From positions 1 to 32,066 of the forward strand of contig JADZEA010000095.1 in assembly GCA_020850775.1 (NCBI GenBank): a stretch of 32,066 nucleotides of DNA. Reading direction: 5' to 3'. The position numbers and the translations under genes are program-made. Below the pieces are notes generated by a model. The model had not been told where the DNA came from. It saw only the letters and a program-made list of their open reading frames with translations, and searched no databases. This DNA comes from a bacterium. GTDB lineage: Bacteria; CLD3. Every line of letters starts with the position of its first letter. The first letter of the stretch is position 1. Shown here one piece after another: positions 4,915 to 21,657 of the stretch.

Positions 4915-6396
4915 TTACCCAAAATAAATTGTCATCGAATTTTGTATCCAAACAGAAAGTGGATTAAAATAAATCCCAAGTAAAATTGTAAATCCTGCAA
5001 GAACCGAAGCAAGTAAACCACTACCAAGTTCAAACTCAACTTTTTCCCCGGTCAGTGCATCTTCAAGGTACATTGCCCGTGCAATTCGCCAGTAGTAAAA
5101 AAGCGAAACAACACTGTTAAGAAGCCCTAAAACCGCAAGCAGGTAAAGTTTTGCATCAGCTAAAGCACTGAAAAGATAAAATTTTCCAACAAATCCTGCC
5201 ATCGGTGGAAGACCTGTCAGTGAAGCAAGAAAAACGGTCATCGTGAAAGCTAAAAACGGAGCACGGGTTTTTAAACCTTTAAAAGCATAAATTTCTTCGC
5301 TTTTAACTTTTTTAGAAATGTAGTCAACCACAAAAAAAGCACCAAAATTCATAAAAAGATAAGTCGTAAGGTAAAAAACAATCGCTTCTGCACCGCGAAG
5401 CGAAAGTGCTGAAATTCCCATAAGCATGTAACCTGCGTGTGCAATGCTTGAGTAAGCCAAAAGCCTCTTTACATTCGTTTGGCTTAAAGCTGAAAGATTA
5501 CCAATTGTCATTGTCAGCACTGAAACCACAATGAAAATTTCACGAAGCCCAATTTCTTCAAGTGCCGGAATCCAGTTTGCAAGCGTTACATCGTTTGTAA
5601 AAGTCAGAGAAATAAATCTTAGTAAAAGCGAAAAACCAGCCGCTTTCGGAGCAACTGAAAAGAAAGCTGCAACCGGAGTCGGTGAACCCTGATAAACATC
5701 AGGACACCAAAAATGAAAAGGAGCAAAAGCAATCTTGTAACCAATTCCACCCAAAATCATCAAAACCGAAAAGGTTAAAGCATAAGTACTAACTGAATTG
5801 TTGGCTAAGAAAATGTAAATTTCGTGTAAATTTAGTTTTCCCGTAAGCCCGTAAAGAATTGAAGCTCCGTAAAGCATAATTCCCGAAGACATCGCACCGT
5901 AAAGAACGTATTTCAGCGAGGCTTCACTTGATTCCATATTTTCTTTGTTGTAACCCGCAAGAACGTAGGAAACAATGCTAACAATTTCAATTGACATCGC
6001 AATCGTCAGCAGGTTTGAAGAGCCGGACATCAAAAGTGTTCCAAGCGTTGCCGTCAAAATCAAAGCATAATATTCGCCTGAATTTATTTTTCGGCTCGTA
6101 AAAGTTGACATTGAAATCAAAGTTGCAATCGCACCACTTGTCAGAAAAATATACTTGAAATACGTGTTTAAACTATCTGAAACCAACATTCCTGAAAACA
6201 AAAATGCAGGAGGATTTGAGCTGACGGTTAGCGAAACAAAAGCAGCAAGAAAAAACGCAAAAGCAGTTATCCCAACCGTTTCTTTGTTCTCGCCTTTGAT
6301 AAAAAGGTCAACTAAAAAAACTACACAAATTCCAACTGCCAAAATGATTTCAGGCAAAATGTACGGAACGCTTTGTAAAGCTGTTAAAGTATTCAT
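4915..6396 (-). CDS. nuoN: NADH-quinone oxidoreductase subunit N
   Basis: A 493-residue antiporter-like membrane subunit of complex I that contributes one proton channel. E137 in the AMSIEIVSIVSYVLAG helix and K221 in GYKIAFAPFHFWCPDVYQG match the conserved Glu/Lys pair of NuoN. SPTPVAAFFSVAPKAAG follows, with Lys in place of the His seen in NuoL. Length and roughly 14 hydrophobic helices are normal. It is the last gene of the L-M-N operon, 21 bases after nuoM. I see no good Shine-Dalgarno site before its ATG, so translation may depend on nuoM. Confidence 0.96.
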   Translation of the reverse strand: MNTLTALQSVPYILPEIILAVGICVVFLVDLFIKGENKETVGITAFAFFLAAFVSLTVSSNPPAFLFSGMLVSDSLNTYFKYIFLTSGAIATLISMSTFTSRKINSGEYYALILTATLGTLLMSGSSNLLTIAMSIEIVSIVSYVLAGYNKENMESSEASLKYVLYGAMSSGIMLYGASILYGLTGKLNLHEIYIFLANNSVSTYALTFSVLMILGGIGYKIAFAPFHFWCPDVYQGSPTPVAAFFSVAPKAAGFSLLLRFISLTFTNDVTLANWIPALEEIGLREIFIVVSVLTMTIGNLSALSQTNVKRLLAYSSIAHAGYMLMGISALSLRGAEAIVFYLTTYLFMNFGAFFVVDYISKKVKSEEIYAFKGLKTRAPFLAFTMTVFLASLTGLPPMAGFVGKFYLFSALADAKLYLLAVLGLLNSVVSLFYYWRIARAMYLEDALTGEKVEFELGSGLLASVLAGFTILLGIYFNPLSVWIQNSMTIYFG

Positions 6397-6417
6397 AATT
6401 TTTCTACTAAATTTTAC

Positions 6418-7965
6418 TTACTTAATTACTTGTGAAACTTGTTCAGCAACTGCCGGATTGACAACCTCAAGAAGCCTTCCAACAGAAGCATTGATTAAAT
6501 CAAGCATTGGTTTTGGGTAAATTCCAAGTGCAAGAACAATTATTCCAATTGGAATTAAGGTAAGTTTTTCACGCCCGCTAATCTCAACAATGTCTTTAAA
6601 ATGCTTCATTTCCGTGTTTAATTTTCCCATAAAAACCCTTTGCATTGTCCAAAGAAGGTAAGCAGCACCAAGCAAAATTCCAAAAACTGACCAAAGAGTG
6701 ATTGTTGGATAAGTTGACCAGGAACCAACAAAAATTAAAGCTTCAGAAATGAAACCACTAAGTCCCGGAAGCCCTAAAGCCGCAAAAAATGCAAAAGTTG
6801 TGAAGCCTGCGTAAACGGGAACGTGTGAAGCAAGTCCGCCAAAACCTTCAATTTCTCTGTGATGAGCACGGTCATAAATTACACCAACAAGTAAGAACAG
6901 CATCGCAGTAATCGTTCCGTGATTAAACATTTGCATTACCGCACCCGTCATTCCTGCCGGATTGTTTACACTCAAAACTGACATTCCAAGCAAAACGTAA
7001 CCCATGTGGCTGACGGAAGAGTAAGCAACCATTTTTTTCAGGTCTTTCTGAGCCATCGCACAACAAGCGCCGTAAAGAATGTTAATCGCTCCGAAAACTG
7101 CGACAGTCGTTGCAAAATATTGAGTTGCTTCAGGTAAAATCGGGTAAATTATTCTCAAAATTCCGTAAGTTCCCATTTTCAAAAGAACACCTGCAAGAAT
7201 TACTGAAATTGAAGTCGGAGCTTCAACGTGAGCATCCGGCAACCAGGTGTGAAACGGAAACATCGGAACTTTGATTGCAAAACCAATAAACAAACCGAGG
7301 TAAGCCCAAAACTGAAAACCACCGACTTCAAAAGTTCCAAAAACACCTTCTTTTGATTTTGCCATCAGTTCAAAGAAATCAAAAGTTCCTGTTTTAATGT
7401 AGAAAGCAGCCATCACGAGAAGCATAAAAACCGAGCCAAAAAGCGTGTAAAGGAAAAACTTAATTGCTGCGTACTCTTTCCTTGGTCCGCCCCAAATCCC
7501 GATTAAAAAATACATCGGAAGAAGCATAACTTCCCAAAAAACAAAGAAAAGGAAAAAATCTGTTGCCGCAAAAGTTCCTGCCATTCCGGTATCAAGCAGT
7601 AAAAAAAGCGAGAAAAAACCTTTCGGCATTTTGTCAATTTTCCAGGCTGCAAGCACACAAATCGGACACAGCAAAGTCGTCAAAAATATCAGCGGGTAAC
7701 TAAGTCCGTCAATTCCCATTGAGTAATGAATGTTAAACTTTTCAATCCAGGGAAAGTTAATCACGTACTGCATTGAGTTTGCGTCGTTTATTCCAGCAAG
7801 TGCAATATCGTAGTTTAAGTACATCATTATTGCCACAAAAAACGGTGGAATTGTTGTGAAAAGTGCAATCCATTTTGCGTGTTCTTTAGCAATAAATGGA
7901 AGCAAAATAATTAATGCCCCGACAATCGGAAAAAATGTGATAAAGTTTAATTCCCAATGGTACAT
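6418..7965 (-). CDS. nuoM: NADH-quinone oxidoreductase subunit M
   Basis: A 515-residue proton-pumping membrane subunit of complex I. E145 in FVFWEVMLLPMY and K232 in FAIKVPMFPFHTWLPDAH are the conserved channel residues. HVEAPTSISVILAGVLLKMG and VAYSSVSHMGYVLLG are standard NuoM stretches. The length is normal. An AGAGG site precedes the ATG, and the gene lies 22 bases after nuoL in the same operon. Confidence 0.97.
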   Translation of the reverse strand: MYHWELNFITFFPIVGALIILLPFIAKEHAKWIALFTTIPPFFVAIMMYLNYDIALAGINDANSMQYVINFPWIEKFNIHYSMGIDGLSYPLIFLTTLLCPICVLAAWKIDKMPKGFFSLFLLLDTGMAGTFAATDFFLFFVFWEVMLLPMYFLIGIWGGPRKEYAAIKFFLYTLFGSVFMLLVMAAFYIKTGTFDFFELMAKSKEGVFGTFEVGGFQFWAYLGLFIGFAIKVPMFPFHTWLPDAHVEAPTSISVILAGVLLKMGTYGILRIIYPILPEATQYFATTVAVFGAINILYGACCAMAQKDLKKMVAYSSVSHMGYVLLGMSVLSVNNPAGMTGAVMQMFNHGTITAMLFLLVGVIYDRAHHREIEGFGGLASHVPVYAGFTTFAFFAALGLPGLSGFISEALIFVGSWSTYPTITLWSVFGILLGAAYLLWTMQRVFMGKLNTEMKHFKDIVEISGREKLTLIPIGIIVLALGIYPKPMLDLINASVGRLLEVVNPAVAEQVSQVIK

Positions 7966-7987
7966 AAAACCTCTTATTTTTATTTTT

Positions 7988-10126
7988 TTACATTACAATC
8001 ATTGTTAAAAGTGCTAAAATTCCAAGCACCGTAAAAGCAAAGTAATTTTGTGCTTTTCCCGTTTGGAAAAATGTCAGAACCATTCCGGCTGCACGCATGG
8101 AAAAACCCGAAGCGTTAACGAGTAAATCAACAACGTACTTGTCAAACAAACCTGAAATTTTAGAAACAAAAACCGTCAGCGAAGCAGTTAAATTGACGAT
8201 TCCGTCAACGATTACACGGTCAGTCCAGGCAAGCAGATTGTTCAGGTTCAGTAAAAATCCTTTGACGAGAACGTTCACGTAAAACTCATCAACGTAATAT
8301 TTATTGAAGGAAAGCGTGTACAAAATTCCCATTCTTTTTGCCCAGTCATCGGCACTGAGACTTTTCTTTTGGTACATTAAGTAAGAGGCTAAAATTCCTG
8401 TCCCGGCAACAATCAAAGAAATCACAGTAGCCGGAATGTGTGCTGCGTGAGTGTAGTGTTCAAGGTGTTCAAGAAGTTCGTGAGTTTCTGCGACTGCAAT
8501 TTTTGGAAGTGCAATCAGGTGCAAAAACCAGGAATTTTCAGCGTTTGCTCCAACAATAAAACTTAAAATATCTTTTGGCGCCCACCAAATCCAAAAACTC
8601 AGACCTGCTAAAATCATTAACGGCAAAGTAATCTGAATTGGGTTTTCGTGATGAATTTCATCGTAGATTTCTTTCTTTTGTGGCTCGCCGTGGAAGGTCA
8701 TCCAAATTATTCTGAACATGTAAAAAGCGGTCATCAAAGCTGCTCCAAAACCAAAAACAGGCAAAATAAAATGACTCGTGTGGCTCATTGAAAATGCTAA
8801 AGAACCAGCTAAAATTGCATCTTTACTCAAAAATCCTGAGAAAAACGGAACTCCGGCAATCGCACAGGTTGCAATTAAAAAAGTCCCGTAAGTTATCGGA
8901 AGTTTGTTTTTCAATCCGCCCATGTTTCGCATGTCTTGCGGGTCTGTGTGATGGTCGTGCAAGTGATGAAGTGCGTGGTGCATTGCGTGAATTACGGAGC
9001 CGGAGCCAAGAAACAAACAAGCCTTAAACATTGCGTGAGTTACAAGGTGAAAAAATGCGGCACTGTAAGCACCAACACCTAATCCCATAATCATGTAACC
9101 GAGTTGTGAGATTGTTGAGTAAGCTAAAACTTTTTTGATGTCATTTTGGGTGATTGCGATTGTCGCTGCAAAAAATGCCGTAAACCCGCCAATGTAAGCA
9201 ATCACGAGCATTGAGTCCGGAGTCAGGATTGGGAAAATCCGTGCAACCAAGTAAACTCCGGCAGCAACCATCGTCGCAGCGTGAATCAGTGCGGAAACAG
9301 GAGTTGGACCTTCCATCGCGTCAGGAAGCCAAACGTGAAGCGGAAATTGTGCCGATTTCCCGATTGCACCGCAAAACAAACCGATTCCCGCAAGCGTCAG
9401 CATTGTTCCGGCAAGTTCGCCTTTTTCAACCAAAGCGTAAACACCTTCGCTTTCGCCGATGCTTGGCAAAACCAAAGTTCCAACCGTGATAAAAACAATC
9501 AAAATCCCTAAAAACATTCCGATGTCGCCGATTCTGTTCGTGAGAAAAGCCTTTTTACAAGCATCAGCGGCAGTATCTTTTTCAAACCAAAATCCAATCA
9601 AAAGGAAGGATGAAAGCCCGACAAGTTCCCAGAAAATGTAAAGCCCGAACAAAGAATGCGAAAGTACAAGCCCAAGCATTGAGAACGAAAACACGGAAAG
9701 GAAAGCATAAAACCTTGAAAATCTTGGGTCACCTTTCATGTATTCAAACGAAAAAAGATGCACAAGCGAAGAAATCAGCGTAACAACCATCAGCATAATC
9801 GCCGTCATGTTGTCAATCATAATTCCCATTGAAATTTTCATTTGCGGGATTGCAAAAAATACCCAGCTAAAATCCCAAACCTCAAGATGATTCGGGTCGT
9901 ACCTGTTCACAACCAAATCGGTAAAAATCACCGTTGACATCGCCAAGCCCGAAAAAATGGCGGCAAACGGCAAAATTGTCGCAAAGGCAGGATTAACTGC
10001 CTGCATCTTTTTACCAAAAATAATTTGAATTAAAAACGAAAAAAGTGGCAAAAGAAGTATCCAAATTGATAGTTGGATATTCCTTGAAAGTTCAGAAGTA
10101 ATTGCTTGAGTAATTGTTTCTGGCAT
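7988..10126 (-). CDS. nuoL: NADH-quinone oxidoreductase subunit L
   Basis: A 712-residue distal proton-pumping subunit of complex I. E167 in IFWELVGLSSFLLIGFWF and K257 in GAIGKSAQFPLHVWLPDAM are the conserved channel residues; GPTPVSALIHAATMVAAGVY follows. The long C-terminal part fits the lateral amphipathic helix and the last membrane helix of NuoL. A loop at residues 380-393 carries eight histidines (H380, 383, 384, 387, 388, 390, 392, 393), extending the usual short HAMHH segment before DMRNMGG. A GAGG site lies five bases before the ATG. It is the first gene of a nuoLMN operon; no other nuo genes occur in the window. Confidence 0.97.
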   Translation of the reverse strand: MPETITQAITSELSRNIQLSIWILLLPLFSFLIQIIFGKKMQAVNPAFATILPFAAIFSGLAMSTVIFTDLVVNRYDPNHLEVWDFSWVFFAIPQMKISMGIMIDNMTAIMLMVVTLISSLVHLFSFEYMKGDPRFSRFYAFLSVFSFSMLGLVLSHSLFGLYIFWELVGLSSFLLIGFWFEKDTAADACKKAFLTNRIGDIGMFLGILIVFITVGTLVLPSIGESEGVYALVEKGELAGTMLTLAGIGLFCGAIGKSAQFPLHVWLPDAMEGPTPVSALIHAATMVAAGVYLVARIFPILTPDSMLVIAYIGGFTAFFAATIAITQNDIKKVLAYSTISQLGYMIMGLGVGAYSAAFFHLVTHAMFKACLFLGSGSVIHAMHHALHHLHDHHTDPQDMRNMGGLKNKLPITYGTFLIATCAIAGVPFFSGFLSKDAILAGSLAFSMSHTSHFILPVFGFGAALMTAFYMFRIIWMTFHGEPQKKEIYDEIHHENPIQITLPLMILAGLSFWIWWAPKDILSFIVGANAENSWFLHLIALPKIAVAETHELLEHLEHYTHAAHIPATVISLIVAGTGILASYLMYQKKSLSADDWAKRMGILYTLSFNKYYVDEFYVNVLVKGFLLNLNNLLAWTDRVIVDGIVNLTASLTVFVSKISGLFDKYVVDLLVNASGFSMRAAGMVLTFFQTGKAQNYFAFTVLGILALLTMIVM

Positions 10127-10427: not shown

Positions 10428-10895
10428 ATGGATAGTTCTAAAAAAGATGACGTTTCCCGCAGAAATTTCCTTTCCACAACTTTAATGGGAGTCGGCTTGG
10501 TTGCAAGTTATGGTGTAACTACTTTTTACGCTGCAAATTTTATTGCTCCTGAAGATAAAAAGAAAATTTACCGTTCATTGTACGTTGCTCCTGAAAAATC
10601 TGTTCCTGTCGGCAAAAGTATTGATTTTGAAGACTTAAAAGGTCGCAAAATTGCAATTACCAACACAGGAGACGGATTTAAAGCACTTTCTACAAGCTGC
10701 ACTCATCTTGGTTGCCAGGTTCATTGGGAAAACGAAAAAAATGCGTTTTACTGCCCTTGCCACGAAGGCTACTTTGATTCTGACGGAAACGTGACGAAAG
10801 GTCCTCCGCCAGCTCCGCTTGCAAAGTACGATGTTGAAATCATTGACGGGAATATTTTTGTAAAAGTTGAGGAGGTTTACAATGCAATCAGTTGA
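10428..10895 (+). CDS. Rieske [2Fe-2S] protein of a cytochrome bc-type complex
   Basis: A 155-residue Rieske iron-sulfur protein that takes the first electron from quinol. A twin-arginine motif (SRRNFL, residues 10-15) precedes a hydrophobic segment at about 16-37, so export by Tat with an N-terminal anchor is expected. The cluster boxes are C91-T-H-L-G-C96 and C109-P-C-H112, with cluster ligands C91, H93, C109 and H112 and the disulfide pair C96/C111. A GPPPAPL turn follows. An AAGAGG site lies seven bases before the ATG. The gene overlaps cytochrome b by 14 bases. The symbol could be petC or qcrA; I leave it open. Confidence 0.95.
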   Translation: MDSSKKDDVSRRNFLSTTLMGVGLVASYGVTTFYAANFIAPEDKKKIYRSLYVAPEKSVPVGKSIDFEDLKGRKIAITNTGDGFKALSTSCTHLGCQVHWENEKNAFYCPCHEGYFDSDGNVTKGPPPAPLAKYDVEIIDGNIFVKVEEVYNAIS

Positions 10896-11931
10896 TAAAA
10901 AAAATTGGTTTGCTGAAAGAATTCCTGTTGATTGGAATTCTCTAAAGCATTTTACGAATGAACCCGTTCCAAATCACCTGAAACGTTGGTGGTTTGCACT
11001 TGGCGGAACTCCTGCTTACCTTTTTATGGTTCAATTAATTACAGGAATTTTCCTGACTTTTTACTACGTCCCAACTCCTGAACAAGCTTTTGAAAGCATT
11101 ACAAGGATTACTTATGAAATCCGTTTTGGCTGGTTTATTCGCGGGCTTCACATGTGGAGTGCAAATTTAATGGTTATCGCCGTTATTCTACACATGCTCA
11201 GAGTGTTTTTCACGGGTTCGTACAGAAAACCGCGAGAACTGAACTGGATTGTTGGAGTTTGTATTTTGCTTGTAACGGTAAGTTTCGGGTTTACAGGCTA
11301 TTCCTTAATTTATGAACAACTTTCTTACTGGGCTGCAACTGTCGGAACAAACATTGCCCAAAGTGTTCCTGTTGTCGGTCCTTTTATGGCTGCTTTTATT
11401 CGTGGCGGTGAAGAAATTGGTCCAAACACTTTGACCCGTTTTTTTGTGTTTCACATCGGAGTTTTACCAACTGTAATGTTTATTTTTGTCTCAACTCATA
11501 TTTTCCTTGTCAGAACTACCGGAGTTACAGAGTTTAAATTCAAGGAACAAGAAAATGAAAAGGAAGAAACTTTCCCGTTTTTCCCAAATCATTTGCTAAC
11601 AGAACTAATCATTGGATTGCTTTTAATGTACATCCTCACAATGCTTGTTGTAATTTTCCCGCCTGAAATGCACCAAAAAGCCAATCCTTTAGTTACTCCG
11701 GAACACATCAAACCTGAATGGTATTTCTTCGCTTCTTTCCGTTGGCTAAAGTTAAACAGTTTAATTGTCGGAATTATCGGACAAGCTGTAGCCGTAATTT
11801 TAATAATGGCTTGGCCCTGGATTGATAAAATTTTCAGACGTAAAAATGAAAATTCAGAACTAAGTCTTTGGATTGGAGTTGCTGGATTTCTTGCGTTTTT
11901 AGCTCTCACTGTTTGGGAAGCAATGGTTTAA
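10882..11931 (+). CDS. Cytochrome b (b6/subunit-IV fused type) of a Rieske/cyt b complex
   Basis: A 349-residue diheme cytochrome b carrying both quinone sites. I chose the ATG at 10882 because GAGGAGG (10869-10875) lies six bases upstream; a TTG at 10867 lies upstream of that ribosome site. Heme ligands H90/H104 (13 residues between) and H191/H206 (14 between) show the b6-like spacing. P278-E-W-Y281 is the Qo-site motif. The C-terminal half (PFFPNHLLTELIIG onward) looks like subunit IV, so one chain combines both parts. No cytochrome c1 or f gene follows; an octaheme cytochrome occupies that place. Confidence 0.95.
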   Translation: MQSVDKKNWFAERIPVDWNSLKHFTNEPVPNHLKRWWFALGGTPAYLFMVQLITGIFLTFYYVPTPEQAFESITRITYEIRFGWFIRGLHMWSANLMVIAVILHMLRVFFTGSYRKPRELNWIVGVCILLVTVSFGFTGYSLIYEQLSYWAATVGTNIAQSVPVVGPFMAAFIRGGEEIGPNTLTRFFVFHIGVLPTVMFIFVSTHIFLVRTTGVTEFKFKEQENEKEETFPFFPNHLLTELIIGLLLMYILTMLVVIFPPEMHQKANPLVTPEHIKPEWYFFASFRWLKLNSLIVGIIGQAVAVILIMAWPWIDKIFRRKNENSELSLWIGVAGFLAFLALTVWEAMV

Positions 11932-11964
11932 AAAAAAGTAAAACTAATTTTAATAGGTGTAAAA

Positions 11965-13431
11965 ATGTCTTTAAATGCTAAAAGAATCGTTATCGCTCTA
12001 CTAAGTTTTGCATTTCTTGCTGCATTACTTTTAGTTGGCTACATTGAAGGGAACAAAAGAATTCTTGGTAAAAAAGCCGAAATTAAAGTTCCTGTTGCAA
12101 GCGAAAATTGTGTTGCTTGCCATAAAATCAAAACTCCTTCTCTCGTTTCTCAGTGGGAAGACAGTAAACACGCAGTTAAAGGTGTTTCCTGTATGGAATG
12201 CCACACTGCTGAAGAAGGTGATACTGATGTTTTTGAACACGAAGGTAAAAAAATTGCTATCGTTGTTTCGCCAAAAGACTGTTCAAAGTGTCATCAAAAG
12301 GAATTTACTGAATTCCAAAAATCACACCACGCTTCCGGTGCTAAAATTTTAGGTTCGCTTGACAACGTTCTTGCCGAAGTTGTTGAAGGCGACATGGGAA
12401 GGCTTGCTTTCCACGGCGAATCTCCTGCTGCTGTCAGCGGTTGTAAACAATGCCACGGTTCAGTAGTTAAAATTATGGAAAACGGAAAACCTGACCCGGC
12501 AACCTGGCCAAACACAGGAATCGGAAGAATTAATCCTGACGGTTCACTTGGAGCTTGTTCCGCTTGCCACTCAAGACACAATTTCACTCCTGAAGTTGCA
12601 AGGAACCCTGAAAATTGTGGAAAATGCCATCTTGGACCTGACCACCCGCAAAAAGAAATTTATGAAGAATCAAAACACGGTGTTGCTTTCAGAAGTTTCA
12701 AGGAATACATGAATCTTAACGCTCAACCCTGGAGAGTTGGAATTGAGTACACTGCGGCACCAACTTGTGCAACTTGCCACATGAGTGCAACAGAAGAACA
12801 AGCTGTTACTCACGATGTCGGAGATAGAATTTCCTGGACACTTCGCCCACCAGTTTCTGAAAAAATCGATGCTAAAGCGAAAAGAGACGGCAAAGAAGTT
12901 TTGTCTTGGGAACAACGAAGAAAAAATATGCAAAACGTCTGTCAAAAATGCCATTCTCCTGAATACGTAAACGGATTTTACCAACAGTTTGACTCAGCAA
13001 TCAATCTTTACAACGAAAAATTTGGTATCCCTTCAACCAAAATTTACAAAATGATGCGTGAAGGAAAAGTCCTGACCGCAACAGAATTTGACGAGGAAGT
13101 TGAATGGTCTTACTACTACTTGTGGCACCACGAAGGAAGACGTGCAAGACACGGAGCTGCAATGATGGGACCAGATTACACCCAATGGCACGGATTTTTT
13201 GAAGTCGCTGAAAGATTCTACACCGAGTTCGTTCCACAAACAAAAGAAGCTTGTGAAGAAGCAGTCAAACACGGAGGCGAACCAGCAATCGCTGCTAAAA
13301 ACGTTCTCAAAGAACTTGACGATGTTCTTAACAGAGAAGAACACAAGTGGTACCTCGGTAAACTTTCCGATGAAGAAAAAGCAAAACGTAAAGCCGCTGC
13401 GGAAGAGTTTAAGAAACGTTACACAAATTAA
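11965..13431 (+). CDS. Octaheme cytochrome c of the hydroxylamine oxidoreductase (HAO) family
   Basis: A 488-residue exported cytochrome with eight CxxCH sites, beginning at C49, C76, C106, C160, C198, C218, C268 and C326. This number and spread, plus the block LWHHEGRRARHGAAMMGPDY (386-405) followed by TQWHG (406-410), place it in the HAO-like octaheme family. The N-terminal hydrophobic stretch (about 9-27) looks like an uncleaved anchor. Family members oxidise hydroxylamine or hydrazine, or reduce nitrite or hydroxylamine, or only carry electrons; the sequence alone does not decide. It lies 33 bases after cytochrome b with an AGGTG ribosome site, so it may replace cytochrome c1 as electron acceptor. 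A Lys/Glu-rich helical tail (about 450-488) ends the protein. Confidence 0.9.
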   Translation: MSLNAKRIVIALLSFAFLAALLLVGYIEGNKRILGKKAEIKVPVASENCVACHKIKTPSLVSQWEDSKHAVKGVSCMECHTAEEGDTDVFEHEGKKIAIVVSPKDCSKCHQKEFTEFQKSHHASGAKILGSLDNVLAEVVEGDMGRLAFHGESPAAVSGCKQCHGSVVKIMENGKPDPATWPNTGIGRINPDGSLGACSACHSRHNFTPEVARNPENCGKCHLGPDHPQKEIYEESKHGVAFRSFKEYMNLNAQPWRVGIEYTAAPTCATCHMSATEEQAVTHDVGDRISWTLRPPVSEKIDAKAKRDGKEVLSWEQRRKNMQNVCQKCHSPEYVNGFYQQFDSAINLYNEKFGIPSTKIYKMMREGKVLTATEFDEEVEWSYYYLWHHEGRRARHGAAMMGPDYTQWHGFFEVAERFYTEFVPQTKEACEEAVKHGGEPAIAAKNVLKELDDVLNREEHKWYLGKLSDEEKAKRKAAAEEFKKRYTN

Positions 13432-13461: not shown

Positions 13462-13505
13462 AAAAGCCTTCAAAATCCACCAGCGATTTTGGAGGCTTTT
13501 CTTTT
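13462..13505 (+). terminator. Rho-independent terminator of the Rieske-cyt b-octaheme operon
   Basis: A 16-bp stem with a single G-T pair (arms 13462-13477 and 13485-13500), a seven-base loop and a T-rich tail after GGCTTTT. It follows the octaheme stop by 30 bases and ends the operon. Confidence 0.85.
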
Positions 13506-13671: not shown

Positions 13672-16600
13672 ATGACTGAACTCCTTTTTAATCGTTACCA
13701 AAAACTTGCTAAACTACCAACTAAATCACAAAACGAGGTTTTTAAAGTTCTTGACACTTTTACGGGACAAGTCTTAGCACTAAAATTACTTGTAAATCCT
13801 GACTACTCTCAAGATTTTAAAATTGAGTTCCAAAGGCTAAAAACCTTAAACTCTCCAAACCTTGTCAAGGTTTATGATTTTGCCTTCACTAACGAAAAAC
13901 AACTTTACTTTACAATGGATTTTATTGATGGAGTTCATTTTAACGACTTTTTTAGCAAAGCCAAAAAAGAATCTCAAAACCTTGTTTTAAAACAAATTAC
14001 TTCGGTTTTGCAATACCTTCACTCACAAAATTTCATTCACGGTGACCTAAAAACAGAAAATATTTTGGTAAATAAAAGCAGTGGTTTTTACTCCGTTAAA
14101 CTCATTGATTTTGGCTTGTCAAATTTTAAATTTAAAGTTAGGATTTCAGGAACTCTTGACTACTTACTTCCCGAAGAAATTGAAAAAAAGCCCTTTGCTC
14201 CCTACGAAAAGGATTTTTATGCTTTTGGAATCTTACTCTACAAATCAGTTTTTGGTAAAACTCCTTTTGAAAGCAAAACTTCAAGCGAAACTCTAAGCAA
14301 AAAAATAAATTATAAATCAAAAGAAATTTTTGAAAAATGCCAAAACTTGGAAGAACCACTAAAAACACTCATTCCCAAGCTGCTTGAAAGAGAACAGAAC
14401 AAAAGACTAAAAAATTTTGAAGAACTGTTCCAAATCCTTCAGGGCGAATCAGAAATTGAAAGAAACAAAGATTTTCACAAAGAGAAATTTTGTGGACGAA
14501 AAAAAGAGTTTGAATTTTTGAAAAATAGTTTTGAGAGAGTTTACGATGCAATTCCTTGTTCAATTTTGATTGAAGCAGAGACTGGAGTTGGAAAATCAAG
14601 GTTAGTTTCTGAGTTTAAATCTTTTTTACAACTTCAAGAAACAAGCGTATTTACCGCTAATTGCCTTGATAATTTTCATGGTGAAAACTTTTTTTCAGCA
14701 GGTAAGATTTTAGCTCAAATTCTTTTTGTTGACGAGTTTAAAAACCTGCTTTCACAAAAAAGAAAGCAAATTTTTTCACAAACTCTGAACGTTTTAGCCA
14801 AAGAAAAAACTAATGAAAATTTTTTAAAAAGTGAGTTGTTCCTAAATTTTTATGAATTTTGTGCCGAAATTTCCAAACAAAAACCAATCGTAATAATTTT
14901 GGATAACATTCAGCAGGAAGATTTTGGTGGAATTGAACTTTGGAACTACTTTTTAAGCAAACTTAAACAAAGAAAAAATGCTAAAATGCTTTTGGTTTTC
15001 ACTCAAAAAAAAGAAGAAATTTCTGAACTCAACAAAACCCTTTGCAATGAAATTTTATTACTTGAAGATTTTTCACAAAACGAGGTTTTTGAGTTTATCA
15101 CTTTTGCAGTTGGAGAAAAAATTGCGAAGGAATTTTCGCAGGAAATATTTGAACAAACAAAAGGAAATCCACTACTTTTGGTAGAAATGATTAGTTTTTT
15201 AGTTCAAAATTTTGGTTCAAATTTTAAAGGGGACCTTGAAAAAGTCCCAAAAGTTTTTGATGAAATTTTCCTTGAGAAGCTAAAAAAACTTTCTGAAGAT
15301 GAAATCCAAACCCTTCAGGATTTGGTAATTTTTGGAAATGCTTTTGAGTTGTCCTGGCTTGAAAGATTTGTAAAACAAAATAAAAAACTGATGCAAAACA
15401 TCGGCTTGCTTGTCAAAAAAAAGTTTTTGGAGCAAGAAAAAACTCGCTTTGAATTCAAACACCAAAAATTCAGGGAAATTGTTTACTCAAAAATTCCACA
15501 AAAAGAAAAGGCTAAGAAACACACCTTAATCGCAAATTTTTTCCTTGCTGAAAAATTTATAAAACCTGAAATTCTTGCTTTTCATTTTTCTAAAAGTGAA
15601 AATCCAAAACTTGCACTTCCTTTTATTTTAGAAGCAGTAAAAAACTCAATTCATTCTTTGGCTTACAGAAATGCTCAAAAACACATTTCAGAAGGTGAAG
15701 TCTTGCTTGCTAAAATTTCACAGAAAACTAAAAAAGAAGAAGAAATTGAGTTTAAGATTTTGAATTATTACAAAGATACTTCAGAATTTTTGGGGTACAG
15801 GGGTTTGAAAGAAAAGTTTTTAAGACAATTGGAACTTGGGCAAAAACTTGGTGAAGAACAAACTTTGGAAGCACTTTCAAACCTTGCAAAATATTTCCAC
15901 AAAGCTGAAATTAACATTGAAGAAAGCCTGAAATTTATTGAACAAGCACTTGATTTTTATAAAAATGGACGTAAAAAAGATGTCCTTTACGTTGATATTT
16001 TGCTTAGAAAAATAATTGTTGTTTACAGTAGAAAAGATGCAAACCTTTTAGAAATGCTTACAGAGACACTTGAAATCGTTTCTAAACTTGAAAATGCTGA
16101 AAGATTACTTTGCTCAACTTACAATCTTTTTGCAGTTTACTATGAAAAGGAAGGACAAAGTTTTAAAGCAATTGAATTTTACGAAAAGGCTTTTCAAATT
16201 GCTGTAAAGAACAAAATTACTTCTGAAATTATTGTTTTACAAACAAACCTTGCAGACCAGGTCGCAAAAAAAATCTCTCCTGAAATGGGAACTCAAATGC
16301 TTGAAAATTCTTACCTTGAAGCAAAAAAAACAGGTTTTTCTTTTCATGAATTTAATGTTGGAAATTCACTTGCACTAAATTTAGCAAAAGTGCATAAATT
16401 TTCCCCGTTTGCGGGGCTTTTTACCGAGCTAAACTTTGCATTGGAAGAAATTGGAAACAAAATTTATGAAATCCAACTTCACTTGTCAATTTGGCATTAC
16501 TATTTTGAGCTTGGTTATTTTGTAAAAGCCCTGGAAAGCATTGAAAAGCTAAGAAATGAAGTTGAGAAAGCTAATTTTCACGTCCCAATTTCACTTGGAA

Positions 16601-18732
16601 TTTATATTTTTGCAATTGGAAATCAAGCAGAAATTTTACTTTCTGAAGGCAAAAATGAACAGGCGCTTGAAATTGTTTCAGATAAAAAATTTCCAAACTT
16701 CCCTTTTCCTGAAATTTTAGAACTAAAGGAGCTTTTTTACGGAATAATCCTTTTTAAAATTAACCAAATCACAAAAGCTAAAGAAATTTTTAGAAAAATT
16801 GCAAAAGGAACAAATCTGCCTTTGCAATTTGCGGAAACAGCAAAATCTTACCTTGCAAGGATTGAAAACGACTTTGAAAGCTCGGAAAAAATTGTGATTA
16901 GCAAAAATTTTTTTATTCACTCAAAAACCGAACGAAACAGAATTTTGTGGAATCATTTTCTTTTGGCCAGGGAAACAAACCAAAGTTTGGAGCTTCAAAA
17001 GAAGATTTTAGATGAAGCCTTTGAGCTGGTTCTTGTTTCAAGTTTGACAATAAAATCTAAACTTGACAGGAAAAATTTCCTTCTCAAAAACCTCTTTGCC
17101 TCAAAAATTTTTAGTGCTTACTTTCATTTTCATTTTGGAGAGAATTTTCAAAATGAAAGGGAGAAATTCCTTGAAAAATTTTGTGAAGCAAGTTCAGAAC
17201 TTGGTAAAATCTTTGCAAACACAAAACAACCAAAACAAAGCATTGAAATCAGTAAAATTGTAGAAATCAGCAATCTTTTAAATTCTTCTTCTGAACCACA
17301 AATTATTTTGAATAACTTGATTGACCTTGCAATTGAACACTTGAAAGCTGACAGAGGATTAATCATTCTTCACGATAAAAATAGCGGTGAACTAACGGTA
17401 AAAGTTGGTAGAAACGTTGAAAAAGAAACGATTTACGATGTTACACAAATTTCAAAAACAATAATTAAAGACGTTAGCAAAGGTGGAAAATCCATTTTTG
17501 CTTTCAAACTTGATGAAGACGAAAGATTTGCACAAAATATTAGCGTTGTAAACCTAAAAATTCGTTCTCTTGTGTGTGTTCCATTAAAAAAAGAAAATGA
17601 AATTTTTGGAACAATTTATCTTGATTCTTTGAATGAGCAGAAAAGTTTTGGTGAATATGAAGTTGAATTTCTTGAAACAATTGCAAACCTTGCAGTTGTT
17701 GCGATGGAAAATGCAGAAATTTACAAAAAAATTCATCAAAAAACCTTAACGCTACAAAAAACTGTTGAAGGGAAATTTAGCTTTCACAAAATCATTTCTA
17801 AAGATGAAAAAATGATGCAAATTTTTTCTGAACTTTCAGAAGTCGCAAAAACGGAGATTTCGGTTTTAATTTTGGGCGAAAGTGGAACAGGAAAAGAATT
17901 GATTGCGAAAGCAGTTCATTTTCAAAGCCAACGAAAAGAAAATAATTTTATTGCGATTGATTGCGGAGCGATTCCTGAAACGATGATTGAAAGTGAACTT
18001 TTTGGACACAAAAAAGGTTCGTTTAGTGGAGCAGTTAGCGATAAAAAAGGATTATTGGAAGAAGCAAACAATGGAACTGTTTTTCTTGACGAAATCACAA
18101 ACACAAGTTTTTCCTTTCAAGCAAAGTTTTTGAGGGTTTTGCAGGAAAAGGAAATTCGTAGAGTTGGTGAAAATTTTTACCGTAAAATCAATGTTAGAAT
18201 TCTTGCTGCAACAAATCTTGACATTCTTGAGGAAATTAAAAAAGGAAATTTTAGAGAAGATCTTTACTTTAGGCTAAACAATTTTTCATTTTATCTTCCA
18301 CCGCTTAGAGAACGAAAAGATGACATTCCACTCTTGGTTAGCCATTTTGTTGAGGAATTTTCAAAATCTTACAATAAAAAAATAGTTGGAATTTCACAAA
18401 AACTTTTAGATTTGCTAACAAGTTTTGAGTGGAAAGGTAATGTTAGAGAACTTCGTTCAGTTGTTAGCGAAATAATTTTACGCGAAAAAGGTGATTTTCT
18501 TTCAGAGGAAAGTTTGCCAAAAAGATTTTCTAATTTTGTAAAACCCCACAACCTAACAATCAAAATCACAACAGAAAAAGAGCAACTTGTCAGCCTTGAC
18601 GAAAGCCAAATTTTTTACATCCAAAAAGTTCTGCAAGAAACAAAAGGCAACAAATCTGAAGCTGCAAGAATTTTAGAAATCCCACTCTCAACCTTAAGGT
18701 CAAAAATGCAAAAATTAGGAATGAAAAACTAA
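13672..18732 (+). CDS. Giant regulator: Ser/Thr kinase-like, STAND-like ATPase, helical repeats, GAF, sigma54 AAA+ and Fis HTH
   Basis: A 1686-residue cytoplasmic protein with no membrane segment. Domains in order: a protein-kinase fold (1-260; K38, HGDLK at 123-127, D146-F-G); a predicted ATPase (about 275-620; Walker A around K307, Walker B IVIILD at 406-411); a long TPR-like helical region (about 620-1195); a GAF domain (about 1204-1350); a sigma54 activator AAA+ domain (about 1365-1615; Walker A GTGK 1405-1408, loop G1449-S-F-S-G-A1454, Walker B VFLDE 1470-1474); and a Fis-type helix-turn-helix (about 1642-1684). The kinase glycine loop is degenerate and the catalytic loop is HGD, not HRD. 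The GAFTGA loop reads GSFSGA, a conservative change. The kinase/ATPase/TPR/GAF arrangement is known in bacterial signalling proteins; the added enhancer-binding module implies direct control of sigma54 promoters. Confidence 0.9.
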
Positions 18733-21445: not shown

Positions 21446-21637
21446 ATGAAACACTTTTTTTTCTGCTTAGCAATTTTTTTGCAACTAATTGGGATGGGAC
21501 TTGCACTTTTCGGGCTTTACGAAGGTGTTTACGAAGCGAAACCAATGGAAAAAATGACTCAGGAAATCGTGCTTGGGACAGTTGGTTTTTTGCTTTTTTT
21601 TATCGGAACAAAAATGAGAAGTAACTTTTCAGAATAA
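21446..21637 (+). CDS. Small two-helix membrane protein
   Basis: A 63-residue protein of unknown function. Two hydrophobic helices (about 4-24 and 42-56) flank a short polar loop (about 25-41) with EAKPMEKM. No signal cleavage site or cysteine pattern is clear. The GGAG at the end of pfk serves as ribosome site, and the ATG is three bases after the pfk stop, so it is probably cotranscribed with pfk and the FAD oxidase that follows 20 bases later. Coding is supported by the tight spacing and the continuous frame; I know no family for it. Confidence 0.65.
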   Translation: MKHFFFCLAIFLQLIGMGLALFGLYEGVYEAKPMEKMTQEIVLGTVGFLLFFIGTKMRSNFSE

Positions 21638-21657
21638 TTTTCAGAAGGAACAAAAAA

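Follow-up and report, generated by a model that had tools for sequence, protein, structure and literature searches.

A predicted sigma54 activator with kinase, STAND, TPR and GAF domains represents an apparently undescribed family in Calditrichota and part of the Acidobacteriota

Sigma54 activators are textbook machines that usually take their input through receiver, GAF or PAS domains. The window analyzed here, a stretch of 32,066 nucleotides that lies in contig C95 of a Calditrichota genome (3.09 Mb, 265 contigs; sister genus of the MAG CLD3), contains an open reading frame of 1686 residues at 13672–18732 on the forward strand, with an ATG start and without an internal stop. An earlier note had read this frame as a kinase-like domain, a STAND-like ATPase and a GAF domain joined to a sigma54 activator. 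It was asked what kind of protein this is, whether it stands alone, and which promoters it may act on.

The domain order was found to be Ser/Thr kinase, STAND ATPase, TPR superhelix, GAF, sigma54 AAA+ motor and Fis-type helix-turn-helix (HTH), all on the forward strand. The Hanks-type kinase domain occupies residues 21–250 (13732–14421; Pfam PF00069, E 3e-38), matches DAPK/CaMK kinases in Foldseek, and carries the catalytic loop HGDLKTEN (residues 123–130, 14038–14061). It is followed by the nucleotide-binding domain of a STAND NTPase (AAA_16, residues 272–434, 14485–14973; PF13191, E 9e-17) with the Walker A motif AETGVGKS (residues 302–309, 14575–14598). The subsequent TPR-like alpha-hairpin superhelix (residues about 645–1172, 15604–17187), presumed to be the STAND sensor, was delimited from AlphaFold secondary structure and TPR_12 matches; the Pfam match near residues 793–844 is weak, and TPR_12 was also found in the paralogues. 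The C-terminal part comprises a GAF domain (residues 1209–1344, 17296–17703; PF01590, E 2e-13), a long helix joining it to the motor (residues 1328–1368, 17653–17775), the sigma54-activating AAA+ domain (residues 1374–1539, 17791–18288; PF00158, E 1e-68), its lid (AAA_lid_14, residues 1546–1621, 18307–18534; PF25601, E 5e-22) and the Fis-type HTH (HTH_8, residues 1649–1682, 18616–18717; PF02954, E 1e-9).

The protein was modeled with AlphaFold in two parts, residues 1–1190 (mean pLDDT 81.6) and 1118–1686 (mean pLDDT 81.9). The N-terminal model comprises a kinase fold, then a STAND core that ends in a winged-helix-like region (strands 586–595), and the superhelix without interruption. Its top Foldseek match was the STAND-TPR structure 6mfv (E 4e-13), followed by Hanks kinases. 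The C-terminal model shows the GAF fold, the long helix, the EBP AAA+ domain and the HTH, and it matched the AAA+ domains of the solved sigma54 activators NtrC1, ZraR and FleQ with TM scores up to 0.95. The Pfam search and both models concur, and the domain assignments of the earlier note were thereby borne out. The three nucleotide sites proposed there also stand as candidates, namely, the kinase site with Lys/Asp/Asp intact, the STAND Walker A, and the EBP Walker A GESGTGKE (residues 1402–1409, 17875–17898).

The window protein is very probably a sigma54 activator. Its motor carries, in addition to Walker A, the Walker B FLDE and an intact FREDLYFRL region, and together with PF00158, HTH_8 and rpoN in the genome, these are the features of bacterial EBPs. 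The sigma54-contact loop reads GSFSGA (residues 1449–1454, 18016–18033), and as it departs from GAFTGA at two positions, the protein could be read as a degraded or sigma54-independent homologue that works as a sigma70 regulator, as TyrR or VpsR do. However, Phe3 is retained, and the substitutions A2S (LevR) and T4S (BkdR) are each singly present in validated activators (PMC3162934); the loop was therefore counted as functional in type, and it is so throughout the family. Moreover, a single rpoN was found on contig C179 (E 3e-53), which removes the absence of rpoN that had been named in advance as grounds for refutation. With the Walker motifs and the FREDLYFRL region intact as well, a sigma70 regulator is highly improbable. 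It was also considered that the protein is a Ser/Thr kinase scaffold in the first place, regulating by phosphorylation of other proteins, with the EBP part serving mainly for oligomerization and DNA anchoring. The window kinase does keep K38 of VAIK, D125 of HxD, N130, D146 of DFG and P167-E168. Across 25 family members, K38, K127, N130, D146, the APE-type P167-E168, and G305 and G307 of the STAND Walker A are conserved, while D125 and K308 are nearly so. All nine kinase matches above the Pfam cut-off in the genome, that is, all clear kinases found there, belong to family genes or to contig-edge fragments consistent with them. Nevertheless, the kinase varies more than the motor: the Gly-rich loop GxGxxG is absent from the window clade, where it reads TKSQNE, although several other members have it, and DFD replaces DFG elsewhere in the family. 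Given this abnormal loop, ATP use at the window kinase site is likely but not assured. As the motor is complete and sigma54 promoters stand beside members (see below), a kinase scaffold is unlikely to be the main role.

The surroundings of the gene allow a more local reading. Upstream lies a Rieske–cytochrome b–multihaem cytochrome operon (10428–13431), and fumC begins 86 bp after the regulator gene, in the same orientation; from this adjacency, the window protein could regulate its neighbors, and the respiratory operon had been suggested as a possible target. However, a strong intrinsic terminator closing the operon (13462–13500, forward strand; 16-bp stem, −20.2 kcal/mol, z −6.5) separates it from the regulator gene, and promoter scans found no -24/-12 promoter ahead of the operon, the regulator gene or fumC. 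The orthologue in CLD3 (L052), moreover, has other, unrelated neighbors, including a CHASE2-cyclase gene. The proposed respiratory target is therefore not supported, and local regulation of the operon or fumC is very unlikely. Beside the window gene and its three closest relatives, no -24/-12 site was found. A scan of the whole window for TGGCAC-N5-TTGCW with up to two mismatches gave 25 matches against 18 expected, which is near chance; the best upstream match, at 21490, was rejected because it falls within a short unannotated reading frame. This frame (21449–21645) encodes a short membrane protein, lies between phosphofructokinase and FAD-oxidoreductase genes, and holds the -24/-12 match by chance. 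On the reverse strand, a nuoL, nuoM and nuoN cluster (4915–10126) is divergent from the Rieske–cytochrome operon.

The description of the regulator as standing alone proved wrong at genome scale. A paralogue search of the contigs returned about nine such proteins, with full-length copies on C8, C147, C183 and C239 and the remainder cut at contig ends; the C8 paralogue is 54% identical to the window protein over residues 1–1684. As the C69 fragment ends in sequence with which the C222 fragment begins, the two are probably one gene. In CLD3, 19 members were found, and at least one member was present in each of the nine Calditrichota genomes examined. In the tree, the window protein pairs with L052, to which it is 57% identical, and the C8 paralogue pairs with L053, also of CLD3.

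Related loci in GTDB genomes were searched with an alignment of the first 560 residues as the query, since a single-protein query returned none. In the 80 loci most closely related to the kinase-STAND half, a histidine-kinase motif was seen at least 19 times and a sigma54 motor only 4 times, so the output end is as unusual as had been suggested; three acidobacterial loci among these 80 had the full architecture. Strong matches (E ≤ 1e-105), mostly in frames of 1450–1850 residues, were obtained in 30 of 297 sampled Acidobacteriota (approximately 10%). Kinase, GAF and EBP were encoded in one reading frame in 19 of the 20 acidobacterial regions retrieved, the twentieth being cut at its 5' end, and most also had a STAND match. 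With the architecture in all nine Calditrichota genomes and in a fraction of the Acidobacteriota, its presumed uniqueness did not hold. No published description of it was found in the open-access literature searched; the window protein is a true member of this family of sigma54 activators, which appears to be undescribed. One pair of members, L015 and L057, has an alignment gap at the STAND Walker A and retains only kinase, TPR, GAF and EBP; judged from this alignment, the STAND part is therefore not indispensable within the family. The clade with DFD for DFG is expanded in CLD3 (L054, L058–L060, L062, L063 and L066) and mostly lies beside T9SS-sorted proteins; the one of these scanned by Pfam has LDL-receptor class B (YWTD) repeats.

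Candidate targets were sought in 28 family loci from two genomes. The textbook consensus TGGCAC-N5-TTGCA, which was not fitted to these loci, was found at ≥9/11 matching positions at 15 sites upstream of exported-protein genes, whereas 200 permuted consensi gave a mean of 0.4 and a maximum of 4 upstream sites. The exported-protein class was assigned by simple signal-peptide and T9SS-tail patterns, with a Pfam check for a few proteins. The pattern TGGCAY-N5-TTG, picked after inspection of the data, occurred 19 times in the 28 loci, and 17 of these sites were located 6–240 bp upstream of a T9SS-sorted or signal-peptide gene on the right strand. No enrichment was obtained with a log-odds -24/-12 matrix at a threshold of 11 (4 upstream, 44 elsewhere), which excluded A after TTG, although A often replaces C at this position in the lineage. 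A perfect TGGCACACAACTTGCA stands ahead of the gene of a 1513-aa T9SS-sorted protein adjoining a family member. A member-target pair is conserved in both genera (C239/L012 and L056). Because of the promoters beside them, several family members are likely to act on nearby exported-protein genes. For the window protein itself, exported-protein targets are a tentative suggestion, and its clade probably acts in trans.

A further candidate site comes from a sister family of the class, in which the member gene follows a BrkB-family (BrkB/YihY) gene in all six loci. In five of five Calditrichota genomes of this sister family (L070–L074), the palindrome GACGG-N5-CCGTC is followed by GGCAT-N5-TTGA before the gene of a lipoprotein of approximately 310 residues, with 67–91 bp from the palindrome to the promoter in every case; no sixth copy of this palindrome occurs in the 84.6 kb. 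The lipoprotein gene lies near the member gene, and in four of the five genomes it is directly adjacent and convergent. Homologues of this lipoprotein in the window family also carry a -24/-12 promoter. The recognition helix differs between the window clade and the sister-family clade; therefore, the sister-family site is not transferable to the window protein. Another palindrome, TGATGAAATTTCGTCA, lies 30–100 bp ahead of two genes for family members and one for a T9SS protein (G001:C50:140070, L013:15279 and L053:3111). Upstream of the C8 and L053 members it resembles a UAS and may act as one, but its copy at C183 in the own genome forms a terminator hairpin, and no sigma54 promoter was found after the remaining copies. 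TGTAC-N6-GTACA before the f1 lipoprotein was dropped, being exact in only one of two genomes.

In its C-terminal part, the window protein resembles the GAF-type EBPs NifA and NorR, which have GAF, sigma54 AAA+ motor and Fis HTH in identical order. Its best PDB match by sequence was a Nif-specific regulator (9qq6), and its best NCBIfam match was NifA, below the cut-off. Unlike in NifA and NorR, however, kinase, STAND and TPR add approximately 1200 residues ahead of this part. Mycobacterium tuberculosis PknK is not known to have a GAF domain or a sigma54 motor. As in the window protein, a Ser/Thr kinase is fused to a MalT-like STAND part in PknK (PMC4381067, PMC1262709). MalT itself combines a STAND ATPase, a winged-helix region, a superhelical repeat arm and a DNA-binding output in one chain (PMC4381067), and the window protein has the Walker A, an IIILDN-type Walker B, the winged-helix-like strands and the repeat sensor of this class. 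The two differ in output, as MalT recruits RNA polymerase via its own DNA-binding domain, whereas the window protein uses as its output a second ATPase, which remodels sigma54 polymerase; the window protein also adds a kinase and a GAF domain. Large chains with an N-terminal Ser/Thr kinase and GAF are also known from the cyanobacterial dual kinases HstK and cbSTKIII (PMC2176072, PMC1262709). These end in a histidine kinase, whereas no C-terminal HisKA or HATPase was present among the listed Pfam and NCBIfam matches of the window protein. The nearest relatives found include cyanobacterial loci that combine the kinase-STAND half with a histidine-kinase motif.

Taken together, the window protein is probably a one-component sigma54 activator with a MalT-like STAND/TPR switch and with GAF and kinase inputs. 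The domains and motifs are seen in the sequence and the models, and we infer the coupling between them. At rest, the STAND part, with ADP bound, and the GAF domain would hold the motor back from ring formation. A ligand or partner acting on the TPR arm, the GAF domain or both would open the STAND part, whose oligomerization would gather the motors into a hexamer on upstream sites; ATP hydrolysis by this hexamer would then open sigma54 promoters. The kinase may tune the switch, with its own chain or a partner as substrate. The seeding of the hexamer by the STAND part is proposed because of the precedent of MalT, in which the STAND part opens on binding of inducer and ATP and multimerizes, leading to cooperative DNA binding (PMC4381067). 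For the window protein, such STAND-gated oligomerization is favored slightly over even chances. If true, linking the sigma54 motor with a STAND switch and with a Hanks kinase would be a new way to gate hexamer assembly. Ready candidate targets are the sister-family palindrome with its -24/-12 promoter in five genomes and the promoters before exported-protein genes beside members. With this cis evidence, the idea of sigma54 as a controller of the bacterial exterior (PMC3162934) is extended to Calditrichota. A wider reading is possible though doubtful: the AAA+ hexamer may be seeded by a STAND wheel instead of a phosphorylated receiver, in a chain that also carries a eukaryotic-type kinase, and the Calditrichota expansion may consist of matched regulator/exported-protein pairs that choose which surface proteins are made.

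Genome-wide promoter scans were also compared with reversed controls. In the own genome, a loose pattern gave 30 sites versus 24 in the control, hardly above it, and 22 of the 30 were outside genes. A stricter pattern was above the control both in the own genome (8 versus 1) and in CLD3 (34 versus 7). Downstream of the loose sites in the own genome are genes that we take, by eye from sequence, to be groES-, dnaK- and ric-like. At C8:19900, a separate GAF-type EBP gene (L209, L013:18175–19863) is divergent from the ric-like iron-sulfur repair gene, which has a -24/-12 promoter, as expected for a NorR-type regulator.
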